Notes under the pieces: generated by a model
What the model was told of the DNA's origin: nothing
The model's database searches: none
The model's input: only the letters and a program-made list of their open reading frames with translations
Part shown: one piece after another, positions 43,343 to 47,656 of the stretch
How the letters are laid out: each line of letters starts with the position of its first letter
Position numbering within the stretch: the stretch's first letter is position 1
Origin: an uncultured Schlesneria sp.
GTDB taxonomy: Bacteria > Planctomycetota > Planctomycetia > Planctomycetales > Planctomycetaceae
Length of the DNA: 64,000 bases
NCBI GenBank assembly: GCA_903871875.1
Contig: CAIQIR010000017.1
Coordinates: forward strand, 1 to 64,000
Direction: 5' to 3'
Program-made: the position numbers and the translations under genes

Positions 43343-46300
43343 TTACTTCGCTTCAATCAACAGCGACAACAATGCCGAGGCGTACACGCGATGCCCAAAA
43401 TCGCTCGGGTGGTTCACCCCGTTGCCCGTCAGATCACAATCCCGCTTGCGCTGCAGCATGTGCGTCCAGATCGTGGTCATGTCCGCCAGCGCAATGCCCG
43501 GTCCGCCGAGCGACGCTAACGCGTCCCGATACTGGGGAAACATCTCACGCGGCGTATGCTGCCATTGATCATTTCCCAACATCGTGGCGACGAGAATGAT
43601 TTCCGTGTCTGGACGAGCCGCCTTAATCCGAGTGATCATCTGCTGGATCCCGTCCTTGTATCCTGCCGGATTGCGACGTCCCACATCGTTCATGCCGTAA
43701 GCGATCACCACCAGGTCCGGCTGCGTTTCAAGCAACTTATCGAGATCCGCCAGTCCGTTCGGAACACCCCAACCACCCACGGCCCGATTGAACAGCGCCA
43801 CCTCGCCGCCGTAACTCGCACGCAGCTGAGCGGCCACCAGTTCGGCATACACCGGCATGAACGGCGCCGCCCCCACCAGTCCCGACGCGTTCAATCCATA
43901 ACTGATACTGTCACCGCTGACAGCGATGGTCAGTTTTTCTTTCGCCTTCAGCCGCGCCACCGTTTTCGGCAGTCGCGTCGCGTCGAACTGCGGCACCGCA
44001 CCCGGCCAGTCGCCCGCCGCCCGCACGTAAGTCACTTCAATCTGCTGATCATGAAACCAGTGACCGTTGTCGAACAACAGATGCGTCTCGGGGTCGCCCG
44101 CTTTGTGAGGCAACGCACACGGCACCGCCGAATCGGGGCCACCCGTCCAGACCGGGCGAGCCCCCCGCGGCATGAATAGATCAGTCGATTTCAAAAACGG
44201 AATCGATGACGGTTCCTGCCGTAACAACTGCTGGCCGTCGGCACTGACGGTGAAATCCGTCCCCAACTGAAACCGCGGAGATCCATGCGTCGAGTGCACC
44301 GCCAGAATCTGAGCCGCCGGAAACAACAGTTTTCCGATCGCCGGCTGACCCGCCACATCGCTCACGCACAGCACACTCTCGCGATATACCGTCTGAGACC
44401 GCCAGAACGGTTCCAGCAAATGCAGCTCGGGCAACATTTCGGCAGCGGTCATTGGCTTGAGCTCGATCTGCCGCACATCCATTACCGCCACGCCCGCTTT
44501 CTTTTGAGGTTTCACCGTCAGCGTATAGCGGCCCGGATGTTCGATCGTCACCACTCCCAAATCTTGAGGCACGAAGTTCTGAAAGTGCCCCGTCGCCGGC
44601 ACCGTGAGCGACAACGTCTGCCCGGCGAGCTCGAAGTTCACCAGACTGCCTCCCTGAGTCCCACACCCGACCGACGGAATCACGTGATATCGACCCGGCC
44701 GCTTCAACGTCAGTTCAAACTGAGCCCAGTCGTCCTGATTGACCCAATAACCCAGCGTGTCCTTGTGCGGCAGCGGTTCATATCGCAGCATCGTGCCGAA
44801 GACATCGGCCGTACTGGCCGGCATCGTCACCGTACCATCATCGGCTTGCAGGTTGGGTGCATAGTCCGGATTGAGCTCCGGCAACTTCGCGCCGACCGAC
44901 TCGCGCCAGGCGTCCAGCTTCTGCCCCAGTTCTTTCGCCAACTCGGGCTGCTTGTCGATCACATTGGCCGATTCGCCCGGCTCCTTGCCAACCTGAAACA
45001 GCTCGCGACGTCCGGTGTCATAAAACTCGATCAGTTTCCAGTCACCCGCACGCACCGCCGCGCCTGGCCGAGCCCCTGCATTGAGGTTGTAATGAGGATA
45101 GTGCCAATACAACGCGTCGCGCGCCACTTTGCCATTCCCCCGCAGCACCGGCATCAGGCTGACACCGTCCAGCGGCGGCAGATCGGCCGAACTCGAACGC
45201 GACACCGCACACGCATCCAGGACCGTCGGCAACAGATCCAGGCACGAGACGATGTCGTCGCTGGTGGAACCTGCCGCCACTACCGACGGCCACTTCACGA
45301 GCAGCGGCACACGCAGGCCCCCTTCATAAAGGTGTCCCATCCCATCCCGCAGCGGCGCATTAGAGGTCGAAGGAATAATCTGCCCGTTGCCGTTGCAGGT
45401 TCCGCCATTGTCCGACGTCACCAGCACGAGCGTCTTGTCGCTCAAATGCAGTTCGTCGAGTGTCTTCAGGACGCGGCCGACCGCCTCATCCATACTTTCC
45501 ATCAGAGCCGCGAACACCGGATTGACCTGGCCACCCTTCGGGACCGTCGGCATCGCTCCATACTTGGCCAACAGGTCCGATTTGACCTCGGCCGGCAGGT
45601 GTACGGCAAAATGGGGCAGATACAGAAAGAACGGGTGCGACCGATTTGCCACGAGGAACTTCTCAGCCTCCAGCGCCAGTCGATCGGTCAAATATTCGCC
45701 CGCCGGAGCCTGTTCCAATCCGGGAATCAGGTTTCCTTCAGGATCGGCATACGGAGCGAATTCGTGGTACTGCGTGCCGGTGGCATTCCCCGCAATATTC
45801 ACATCGAACCCTTGCTCGCTGGGTCCGAATCCCGCGCCGCCCAAATGCCATTTTCCGATGCAGCCGGTAGTGTATCCGGCCGACTTCAGCATCTCGGCCA
45901 GCGTGATTTCCGACAACGGCAACTGCCGACTGACCTCGGGCGGTTTCAATCGCCGTCGTGAATCGGCCGCTTGAGCCACAAACGACGCCGTCATCTTCAA
46001 CCGCTGAGGATACCGCCCGGTCAAAATCGCGGCTCGAGTCGGCAAACCGATCGGTGCCGCGGCATAAGCCTGAGTAAACCGCAGTCCCTCGCGCGCCATT
46101 CGATCCAGGTTCGGCGTTTTGTGAAATCGACTGCCATAGCAACCCAGATCGGCCCATCCCAGATCATCGATGACAATCAGCACCACGTTCGGACGAGCGT
46201 CATCGGCCGCGAACGAATTCGCCGCCAACAGACCGCACAACACCGCCCCAATGCCCACCAACCCGCTCGCAACACGGACGAAACCACGAGGCATCCACCA

Positions 46301-46354
46301 AAAGAACATCCCAAGTGGTCGTCGAGTCTTGCCGAAAGATGTTCCCAAAGTCAT
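43343..46354 (-). CDS. Sulfatase-like / SGNH-hydrolase fusion lacking the formylglycine cysteine
   Basis: A 1003-residue secreted protein; ATG 46354 has AGAGGGAGC upstream, and the signal ends near NSFAADD. Residues ~55-490 are a sulfatase fold: VIDDLGWADLGCYG (metal Asp pair), ILTGRYPQR, GKWHLGG, YLPHFAVHLP and VTSDNGGT are all intact. The activation box, normally C/S-x-P-x-R, reads PIGLPTRA: the Cys position is Gly103 (GGT) and the next is Leu104, so formylglycine cannot form. A beta-rich module (YHVIPSVGCGTQGGSLVNF) follows. From ~790 comes an SGNH/GDSL esterase-like domain: VSGDSISYGLN, YGMNDVG and NHPSDFGH supply Ser, Asn and Asp-x-x-His. It may work as an esterase with a substrate-binding pseudo-sulfatase head. 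Confidence 0.9.
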   Translation of the reverse strand: MTLGTSFGKTRRPLGMFFWWMPRGFVRVASGLVGIGAVLCGLLAANSFAADDARPNVVLIVIDDLGWADLGCYGSRFHKTPNLDRMAREGLRFTQAYAAAPIGLPTRAAILTGRYPQRLKMTASFVAQAADSRRRLKPPEVSRQLPLSEITLAEMLKSAGYTTGCIGKWHLGGAGFGPSEQGFDVNIAGNATGTQYHEFAPYADPEGNLIPGLEQAPAGEYLTDRLALEAEKFLVANRSHPFFLYLPHFAVHLPAEVKSDLLAKYGAMPTVPKGGQVNPVFAALMESMDEAVGRVLKTLDELHLSDKTLVLVTSDNGGTCNGNGQIIPSTSNAPLRDGMGHLYEGGLRVPLLVKWPSVVAAGSTSDDIVSCLDLLPTVLDACAVSRSSSADLPPLDGVSLMPVLRGNGKVARDALYWHYPHYNLNAGARPGAAVRAGDWKLIEFYDTGRRELFQVGKEPGESANVIDKQPELAKELGQKLDAWRESVGAKLPELNPDYAPNLQADDGTVTMPASTADVFGTMLRYEPLPHKDTLGYWVNQDDWAQFELTLKRPGRYHVIPSVGCGTQGGSLVNFELAGQTLSLTVPATGHFQNFVPQDLGVVTIEHPGRYTLTVKPQKKAGVAVMDVRQIELKPMTAAEMLPELHLLEPFWRSQTVYRESVLCVSDVAGQPAIGKLLFPAAQILAVHSTHGSPRFQLGTDFTVSADGQQLLRQEPSSIPFLKSTDLFMPRGARPVWTGGPDSAVPCALPHKAGDPETHLLFDNGHWFHDQQIEVTYVRAAGDWPGAVPQFDATRLPKTVARLKAKEKLTIAVSGDSISYGLNASGLVGAAPFMPVYAELVAAQLRASYGGEVALFNRAVGGWGVPNGLADLDKLLETQPDLVVIAYGMNDVGRRNPAGYKDGIQQMITRIKAARPDTEIILVATMLGNDQWQHTPREMFPQYRDALASLGGPGIALADMTTIWTHMLQRKRDCDLTGNGVNHPSDFGHRVYASALLSLLIEAK

Positions 46355-46448: not shown

Positions 46449-46531
46449 GAAAGCCGACCGCGATCCCACCAGGGCCTTTAACCACCACGTTGCCTCGACA
46501 TCACACGAAAAATTTCAGCAAGGATCAGGAA

Positions 46532-47656
46532 ATGCCGTTACTCCGCACCCCTCTGTTCGATTGGCACCACAGTCACGGAGGTCGGATCGTCGAATTTGGC
46601 GGTTGGGAAATGCCCGTCCAATACACCAGCATCGTCGAAGAACATCACGCCGTGCGCAAGGCCGTCGGTCTGTTCGATATCTCGCACATGGGACGCCTTT
46701 CCTTCTGCGGGCCGGGTGCACTTAGCTTGCTGAGTGAGCTGCTGACGTGCCGCGTCGACAATTTGGTCGACGGACAGATCCGTTACGGCCTGGTCTGTAA
46801 CGAAGCGGGCGGCATCCTGGACGATGTGCTGGTCAATCGCATCGACGCCCTGACCTATGGCCTGGTCGTCAACGCCAGCAATCGACTCAAAATCCTCGGC
46901 TGGATCTCTCAACACGGCGGCATCATTTTGTCCCGGTCGGGACAAACCGAATTGACCATCGAAGACCAGACCGGCGACACGTCGATGATCGCCGTTCAGG
47001 GCCCGCAGGCTGTGACCCTGGTCAATAGCATCACGCACGTCGATCTGAGTTCCCTGCGGTATTACACCGGCCGTACGATCGCCATCGACGGGATCCCCGC
47101 CTTCGTCAGCCGTACCGGTTACACCGGCGAAGACGGTTTTGAAATCATCATTCCGAACGCCTCCGCCAACTCGCTGTGGCAGTCTCTGCTCACAAGCGGC
47201 CAGTCACTGGGTATCAAACCGTGTGGCCTGGGTTGCCGCGACACACTACGACTGGAAGCCGCCATGCCGCTGTACGGGCATGAGCTGTCCGAGAACGTCG
47301 ATCCACTGACGGCCGGCTTAGGCTTCGCGGTCAAGCTCGACAAGCCCGCCTTCCTCGGCCGCGATGCGTTATCCAAAATTCCGCAACAACCGAACCGCCC
47401 GGTCCGCGTCGGCCTGAAACTCGCCTCCCGCCGCATCGCACGGGAACACAGCGAACTGTTCACCGGCGACACCCGTCTGGGCGAAGTCACATCGGGCACT
47501 TTTTCCCCCACGCTGGAACAATCCATCGCCATGGCCTACATCGCCGCCACGCATGCCACTCCCGGCACCGCCATCGAAGTCGACATCCGTGGCAAACGAG
47601 AAGCGGCGGAAGTGGTCTCCCTCCCGTTCTACAAAAAAGGGGACAGGTACATTTAA
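46532..47656 (+). CDS. gcvT: Glycine cleavage system T protein (aminomethyltransferase)
   Basis: A 374-residue tetrahydrofolate-dependent aminomethyltransferase that releases ammonia and 5,10-methylene-THF from the H-protein-bound aminomethyl group. Hallmarks: LFDWHHSHGGRIVEFGGWEM at the N-terminus, GLFDISHMGR, VQGPQAVTLVN, the folate-site FVSRTGYTGEDGFEI and LGCRDTLRLEAAMPLYGHEL. ATG 46532 has AAGGATCAGGAA upstream; a TTG at 46490 is not needed. The normal C-terminal ending (LPFYK) is followed by an extra KGDRYI encoded by a GGGGACAGGTACATTTAA repeat-like segment. No gcvH or gcvP lies nearby in the window. Confidence 0.96.
   Translation: MPLLRTPLFDWHHSHGGRIVEFGGWEMPVQYTSIVEEHHAVRKAVGLFDISHMGRLSFCGPGALSLLSELLTCRVDNLVDGQIRYGLVCNEAGGILDDVLVNRIDALTYGLVVNASNRLKILGWISQHGGIILSRSGQTELTIEDQTGDTSMIAVQGPQAVTLVNSITHVDLSSLRYYTGRTIAIDGIPAFVSRTGYTGEDGFEIIIPNASANSLWQSLLTSGQSLGIKPCGLGCRDTLRLEAAMPLYGHELSENVDPLTAGLGFAVKLDKPAFLGRDALSKIPQQPNRPVRVGLKLASRRIAREHSELFTGDTRLGEVTSGTFSPTLEQSIAMAYIAATHATPGTAIEVDIRGKREAAEVVSLPFYKKGDRYI
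47635..47656 (+). repeat. Repeat-like sequence forming the end of gcvT
   Basis: AAAAAGGGGACAGGTACATT, running into the TAA stop, resembles the AAAGGGGACAGGNACATTT motif that recurs in planctomycete and related genomes near REP-type elements. It supplies the last residues and stop of gcvT. Only one copy was found in this window, so its repeat nature rests on recollection of the motif. Confidence 0.35.

Follow-up and report, generated by a model that had tools for sequence, protein, structure and literature searches.

What is a sulfatase fold kept for once the residue that makes it a sulfatase has gone? This question is raised by one gene in a 64,000-nucleotide stretch of contig CAIQIR010000017.1 (hereafter the window) from an uncultured Schlesneria species of the Planctomycetota. 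The reading frame at 43343-46354 on the minus strand is open and translates to 1003 amino acids, with a sulfatase fold towards the N terminus and an SGNH hydrolase domain at the C terminus. An initial annotation, made from the sequence alone, had taken the product for a pseudo-sulfatase fused to an esterase-like SGNH domain. Comparison with its relatives supports this description: a whole clade appears to have lost the nucleophile together with a second active-site residue, and Ser, Asn and His of the esterase are conserved. Based on these sequences, we consider it likely that in this clade the pseudo-sulfatase persists as a non-catalytic, probably ligand-binding, part of a secreted carbohydrate esterase.

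Glycine at the nucleophile position

Pfam finds Sulfatase (PF00884, residues 55-381, E 1.4e-57), SGSH_C (342-484) and Lipase_GDSL_2 (814-990) in the protein. The sulfatase part has the alkaline-phosphatase-type fold of S1 sulfatases, and its best solved relative is 9FO1 (phmmer 3.4e-129). Compared with 9FO1 in Foldseek, the full-length model (mean predicted local distance difference test score, pLDDT, 83.3) reaches a TM score of 0.91 of the target at 46% identity. 9FO1 is AMOR_S1_16A, a kappa-carrageenan 4-O-sulfatase (PMC11760155), and the closest solved relatives carry S1_16 in their entry titles.

The C/S-x-P-x-R sulfatase box of the window protein reads A-P-I-G-L-P-T-R, within APIGLPTRAAILTGRYP. 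Gly103 aligns with Cys58, from which formylglycine would be made in 9FO1. The translation confirms the pair Gly103-Leu104 that the annotation had read from GGT TTG at 46048-46043 on the minus strand. A Cys or Ser convertible to formylglycine is absent from the protein (Gly103), and the Arg of the box is present as Arg107.

Had all homologues retained Cys or Ser, the annotation reasoned, the gene would be a lone mutant. Of 15 Schlesneria genomes, 13 carry the sulfatase/CBM6-like/SGNH gene, 12 at full length and one (G014; L and G numbers are our labels) as a fragment that the contig end cuts off ahead of the esterase. The fusion gene has no match in the remaining two genomes, one of which is 89% complete. 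Residue 103 is Gly in 8 of the 13 genus members and Cys in 5. The box is CSPTR in all 5 Cys-type proteins; the Gly-type boxes are GLPTR, GQPTR, GTPTR and, in five proteins, GSPTR. Among 123 distinct homologues with a readable position 103 we count 115 Cys and 8 Gly, so that Gly is found only in the 8 genus members and in none of the 115 other homologues. Cys is present in each of the 5 fused orthologues and in each of the 25 non-fused relatives. Automated scoring first gave 113 Cys, 8 Gly and 2 Ala, but the two Ala (L116 and L117) are gap shifts; the multiple alignment has Cys in both, and they are hence counted as Cys.

Could the glycine be a sequencing or assembly error, or the mark of a single mutant strain? 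The annotation had thought error unlikely on the ground that the codons lie several base changes from Cys. For the nucleophile this ground fails: the Cys codon is TGT in L008, L010, L011 and L012, and TGT to GGT is one base change. The judgement itself stands, through the presence of Gly in seven further genomes and the use of all four Gly codons at 103 in the 7 full-length Gly genes (GGT, GGC, GGG, GGT, GGC, GGT and GGA). At this position the codon drifts while Gly persists. We thus regard an error or a lone mutant as ruled out for all practical purposes.

With the defining nucleophile absent, the window protein is not a formylglycine sulfatase, and its sequence marks it as a probable pseudoenzyme derived from S1_16-type sulfatases. 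Without Cys or Ser at 103 no formylglycine would form, and the sulfatase fold would be catalytically dead. In a formylglycine arylsulfatase the C61A mutant is fully inactive and C61S keeps 20-35% (PMC12421950). Taken together with the missing precursor, this inactivity argues that the sulfatase domain of the window protein does not desulfate.

Suspected pseudo-sulfatases of the same phylum have been described before: nine putative inactive sulfatases of Lentisphaerae and Planctomycetes lost the box Arg (PMC5066984). In that set, every sequence was scored as Cys or Ser and the loss was that of Arg, whereas the Gly-type proteins kept Arg and lost Cys, and a phylogeny and a selection analysis accompany them. 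In the open-access literature we found no paper on a sulfatase clade that lacks Cys or Ser and is fused to an esterase.

The genome of the window has not lost formylglycine sulfatases generally, since it holds homologues of the formylglycine-generating enzyme (11 PF03781 matches, best 8.3e-84) and the Cys box is kept in 23 of 30 sulfatase-superfamily genes (the box was examined in 30 of the 37 superfamily matches). Presumably, the organism can make formylglycine elsewhere. Five of the 30 examined proteins (L226-L229 and L231, about 715-758 amino acids) read T-L-P-S-H at the box position, and their C-terminal halves look TPR-repeat-like by eye; a Thr in the nucleophile position marks a known type that does not use formylglycine (PMC5066984). 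The sulfatase-like L230 of the same genome has the box C-R-A-S-L, with Cys retained and Pro and Arg lost, and may be another inactive or altered sulfatase.

The remodelled pocket

According to the initial annotation, every other sulfatase hallmark was intact. We found this to be wrong: Met339 stands where the active-site Lys should be, and Ser124 where the pocket Trp should be (Table 1). Position 339 is Lys and position 124 is Trp in every one of the 30 Cys proteins, 5 of them fused and 25 non-fused. We take K287 of 9FO1 to be the equivalent of Lys375 of AtsA. This conserved active-site Lys (96%) is functionally important (PMC5066984). Lys287 of the 9FO1 enzyme is among the residues binding the active-site glycerol, and Trp79, a conserved wall of the pocket, is crucial for 4-O specificity in S1_16 (PMC11760155).

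His170 is kept in all 5 Cys fusions and in the 25 non-fused relatives. His115 acts as the base in the elimination of sulfate from the formylglycine diol (PMC5066984), and from its position in a G-K-x-H motif His170 is presumed to correspond to it. The change to Asn in 6 of the 8 Gly proteins fits a lost need for the elimination base. In the S1_16 enzyme, His125 and His149 lie near the sugar (PMC11760155). The former is retained as His170, and the position of the latter is Thr194 in the window protein. As the 5 Cys fusions and 12 non-fused rows likewise have no His there, the missing His149 equivalent is a trait of the whole subgroup.

The D-D-D-N set of calcium ligands is complete in the window protein, and all four are retained in 7 of the 8 Gly proteins. 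Arg107 and Lys168 are retained in all 8. Compared with S1_16 sulfatases (AMOR_S1_16A/9FO1, 6UST, BT3057 and BT3796), the window protein is alike in fold, calcium ligands, Arg, Lys168 and His252. It differs in having no Cys or Ser nucleophile, Met for Lys, Ser for the pocket Trp, and fused CBM6-like and SGNH domains.

We also compared 156 sites conserved in the non-fused relatives, using 25 non-fused and 5 Cys-fused rows and leaving out nine more distant S1_16-like rows. Eight of these sites (103, 124, 126, 198, 253, 257, 319 and 339) are altered in every Gly member and in no Cys fusion, and the reverse pattern, changed in the Cys fusions and not in the Gly proteins, is found at 2 sites, 147 and 340. 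Pocket residues or their neighbours among the eight are 103, 124, 339, 253, which adjoins His252, and 319, beside the DNGG calcium loop. Elsewhere in the domain, an insertion of about 15 residues near query residue 445, in the C-terminal part of the sulfatase, is common to the Gly-type proteins L002, L003, L004 and L005.

These changes bear on the ligand. The annotation had suggested that the pseudo-sulfatase binds sulfated glycans and that the esterase takes off acyl groups; on this reading, the former enzyme would direct the esterase to polysaccharide that is both sulfated and acetylated. This would be in keeping with the persistence of Arg107, Lys168, His252 and the calcium ligands in the window protein (the first three in 8 of 8), with a kappa-carrageenan 4-O-sulfatase as the closest solved relative, and with nucleophile mutants that were solved with ligand, judging from their entry titles (6psm, C77S with kappa-neocarrabiose; 1e3c, C69S soaked in substrate). 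Nevertheless, the exchanges of the active-site Lys for Met, the pocket-wall Trp for Ser and Tyr198 for an acid, each in 8 of 8, argue against a sulfated galactose-type ligand and make the suggestion an unlikely one. The ligand would probably no longer be a 4-O-sulfated galactose-type sugar, though an anion could still find a hold at the metal site, Arg107, Lys168 and His252.

Another possibility is that the retained metal site and the new pocket residues serve a new activity independent of formylglycine. Four calcium ligands in 7 of 8 proteins, an acidic residue 198 in 8 of 8 and the fixed Gly, Met and Ser would fit such an enzyme, and Thr at the nucleophile in 5 of 30 superfamily members of the genome suggests that the fold probably does other chemistry. 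Against it, residue 103 has no side chain able to act as a nucleophile, Asp64 is Asn in L006, and we identified no catalytic candidate. A new activity seems to us very improbable.

History of the gene and selection on its domains

The Cys-type fusions of the genus (L007, L008, L010, L011 and L012) share the architecture of the window gene, with 63-68% identity and one copy per genome. They differ in having all catalytic residues and other genomic neighbours, and each is presumably a working sulfatase plus esterase.

In a protein tree with 12 non-fused Cys sulfatases as the outgroup, the 8 Gly proteins form one clade (support 100/99) with the 5 Cys fusions as its sister (97/93). Columns 64, 100, 103, 104, 124, 170, 319 and 339 were removed beforehand, and four of the eight Gly-specific sites (126, 198, 253 and 257) remained. 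An RpoB tree gives the same split between Gly and Cys genomes: support is 83/72 for the Gly genomes, 100/99 with G004, a genome without the gene, included, and 100/100 for four Cys genomes. The Cys-type genome G008 had no RpoB match and is absent from this tree. The outgroup row G040 is in the wrong frame and has a very long branch, and the within-genus split is unaffected. As the two trees are concordant, a horizontal origin of the Gly form is unnecessary.

The simplest history would be a single fusion in the genus ancestor, after which one sub-lineage lost the nucleophile, on a single occasion. Judging from the alignments, the ancestor of the sampled genus members already had the fusion, and the Cys, Lys and Trp appear to have been lost in that one sub-lineage. 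The Gly sub-lineage kept the gene open, and its new pocket residues are conserved. Outside the genus, matches at E 1e-150 end at residue 652 or earlier (28 genomes; 170 family genomes searched). In related genera, the match to non-fused sulfatases extends to about residue 633-652, which indicates that these carry the CBM6-like part too and that the fusion added about 641-1003. A search of 72,556 plasmid records gave 29 matches at E 1e-50, none covering more than 80% of the query.

Could the Gly and Cys genes instead be two ancient paralogues with reciprocal loss? This may be so, as the two clades adjoin different genes. A divergent gcvT lies next to the gene at 8 of 8 Gly-clade loci (besides the window L031, L032, L033, L037, L144, L145 and L146), and Mrp/Nuo-type antiporter subunits precede the fusion gene at 3 of 5 Cys-clade loci. 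The single copy of the fusion gene per genome speaks against paralogues. Either the gene was relocated or the Gly and Cys genes are old paralogues. We do not count gcvT as part of the sulfatase/esterase system. At five of the 8 Gly-clade loci, xanthine-dehydrogenase-like genes are found beyond gcvT. Loci L147 and L148 play no part in the analysis.

A further explanation is neutral decay: the sulfatase domain would be a remnant that persists only because it shares a reading frame with an esterase that is needed. Omega was fitted as a single ratio per clade, and some branches of the trees are long. For the sulfatase part it is 0.091-0.092 among the Gly genes against 0.055-0.056 among the Cys genes (5-95% range of 30 codon bootstraps 0.071-0.109 and 0.041-0.060, respectively). 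The SGNH core (801-1000) has 0.041-0.042 against 0.044-0.047, with overlapping bootstrap ranges. In the segments between, for which no bootstraps were run, omega is 0.028-0.031 against 0.032 (501-640) and 0.088-0.089 against 0.075-0.078 (beta domain, 641-800). The fragment L021 ends at residue 345 and is absent from these values and from the SGNH counts below.

The sulfatase-part omega, 1.6-fold above the Cys clade with an SGNH core that is not raised, and the stepwise loss of catalytic residues (His170 in 6 of 8, Asp64 in 1 of 8) are what decay would predict. However, an omega of 0.091 lies a long way under 1, the amino acid is the same in all 7 Gly species at 211 of 443 sulfatase codons (286 of 441 in the 5 Cys fusions), and all 7 complete Gly-clade genes have full-length open frames. 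Under a neutral codon model on the 7-sequence tree, the chance of a fixed Gly is 2.7e-5, of Met 1.2e-7 and of Ser 1.3e-4. Constraint on the sulfatase part of the Gly clade is somewhat relaxed yet strong, with no such change in the SGNH core. We consider neutral decay distinctly unlikely.

The esterase half and the role of the fold

The C-terminal half was modelled separately (residues 500-1003, mean pLDDT 92.7). Its CBM6-like domain superposes with VIA-align on 2cdp_D, from a neoagarohexaose-binding structure, with Z 17.1 and a root-mean-square deviation (rmsd) of 2.0 over 123 aligned residues, and the CBM6 beta-sandwich fold is present. By Pfam, the domain matches CBM_35_2 at E 0.032, below the cut-off, and no CBM6 match is listed. 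The SGNH part (model 283-504, residues 782-1003) superposes on 6hh9, an esterase of acetylated mannans, with Z 18.6 and rmsd 2.7 over 203 aligned residues. Further superpositions are on the lipase/acylhydrolase 1yzf (Z 17.9) and on Axe2 (Z 17.6). The top Foldseek row by E-value for this model is a CE2 enzyme, but at rmsd 19 over the whole chain CE2 enzymes superpose badly on it. Secretion of the protein and a signal cleavage site are presumed from the sequence.

Table 1. Features of the gene and its neighbour (minus-strand residues numbered along the 1003-residue protein)
Feature	Position	Strand	Basis or distribution
Whole gene	43343..46354	-	1003 aa: putative signal peptide, then pseudo-sulfatase, CBM6-like and beta domains, SGNH esterase
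N-terminal hydrophobic segment, residues ~1-49	46208..46354	-	putative secretion signal; sequence and modelled helix 29-53
S1-sulfatase fold, residues 55-500, nearest S1_16	44855..46192	-	Pfam, phmmer, Foldseek
Asp63-Asp64, calcium ligands kept	46163..46168	-	Asp64 is Asn in L006 only; Asp63 in 8/8
Gly103-Leu104, formylglycine-precursor site of C/S-x-P-x-R	46043..46048	-	codons GGT TTG
Ser124, replacing pocket Trp (W79 of 9FO1)	45983..45985	-	Ser in 8/8 Gly clade
His170, read as elimination-base position	45845..45847	-	kept in window protein; Asn in 6/8 Gly clade
Glu198	45761..45763	-	Asp/Glu in 8/8 Gly clade; Tyr in 30 Cys proteins
His252 (H201 of 9FO1), kept	45599..45601	-	8/8 Gly clade
Asp315-Asn316, calcium ligands kept	45407..45412	-	8/8 Gly clade
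Met339, replacing active-site Lys (K287 of 9FO1)	45338..45340	-	9FO1 alignment; Met in 8/8 Gly clade
CBM6-like beta-sandwich, residues 507-634	44453..44836	-	structural superposition on 2cdp_D; Foldseek
Beta domain co-travelling with SGNH domain, residues ~641-790	43985..44434	-	homologues match ~636-1001 as a single unit; model
SGNH hydrolase domain, residues 792-1003, acetylesterase-like	43346..43981	-	Pfam; superposition on 6hh9
Ser816 of GDS block	43907..43909	-	Ser in 28/28
Asn889, oxyanion-hole block	43688..43690	-	Asn in 28/28
His982, catalytic His	43409..43411	-	His in 28/28
gcvT, divergent neighbour	46490..47656	+	at 8/8 Gly-clade loci (family F3); Pfam GCV_T on L032 copy

SGNH hydrolases usually have an Asp three residues before the catalytic His. 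The annotation had called the SGNH triad intact, and for Ser816, Asn889 and His982 this holds in the 28 family members with letters at these positions. The acid is another matter: the His-minus-3 position (within segment 43409-43435) is Gly979 in 28 of 28. The acid must come from elsewhere, with the invariant Asp974, eight residues before His982, as a candidate, or the enzyme would act as a dyad. Gly860, of the Gly block, is kept in 21 of 28 (Ala in 4, Ser in 3). The family is thus like SGNH acetylesterases (CEX 6HH9, Axe2, CE2 2WAA) in core fold and in the conserved Ser, Asn and His, and differs from them in the Gly at His-minus-3; the likeness is one of fold.

The SGNH half also occurs without the sulfatase. 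Among 397 genomes of the class, 141 contain the beta-plus-SGNH unit at E 1e-60, and identity outside the genus is at most 59%. None of 9 SGNH homologues scanned with Pfam has a sulfatase domain; their partners are DUF3472 (one), alpha/beta-hydrolase (one), SASA (sialic-acid-type) acetylesterase (two) and a weak cytochrome c (one), and 4 of the 9 have no Pfam domain besides the SGNH part. The unit is seen shuffled in L188, L189, L193, L201 and L202 of the class.

Based on this architecture, we propose that the SGNH part, via Ser816 and His982, would hydrolyse acyl (probably acetyl) esters on polysaccharide, and that the acylated chain may be held or positioned by the CBM6-like domain together with what was once the sulfatase pocket. 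More specifically, the sulfatase fold may by now be a carbohydrate-binding module, in effect a lectin of sulfatase descent. Its remodelled pocket (Gly103, Met339, Ser124 and Asp/Glu198) would then bind a new sugar, probably one without sulfate, and present this sugar to the esterase. We offer this as a tentative model, somewhat short of an even chance. Alternatively, the sulfatase fold might merely scaffold the protein.

Several observations weigh against a non-catalytic binding module as the reason for keeping the domain. The calcium ligands, Arg107, Lys168, His170 and His252 that the window protein retains exceed the needs of a domain without chemistry, and strong purifying selection on the domain also fits an unrecognised activity. 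Nine remoter Cys sulfatases have Tyr or Val at 124 while retaining Cys, Lys and His, so that Trp is not universal in S1_16-like proteins. At the domain-average omega of 0.091, the chances of a fixed Gly (0.25), Met (0.14) and Ser (0.32) are unremarkable; the constraint on Gly103, Met339 and Ser124 is close to that on the domain overall and not special. Moreover, the invariance of those sites had been seen before the fixation test, which makes the probabilities guides. Finally, a binding role is what we infer, and a pure scaffold would look identical.

A pseudo-sulfatase kept on a secreted esterase remains the likely account, and it has consequences for how sulfatases are counted. Classification begins with the Cys/Ser box, and lineages that lack the box go uncounted or may be annotated as active. 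Marine Planctomycetes and their relatives are noted for exceptionally numerous sulfatases (PMC6388578), and the Gly clade is a caution for such counts in this group. Within one genus, sister clades carry a presumably dead and a seemingly intact version of the same architecture, and their esterase cores, which are under similar constraint, provide an internal control. With this pair one can test directly why a sulfatase fold persists once its chemistry has been lost.

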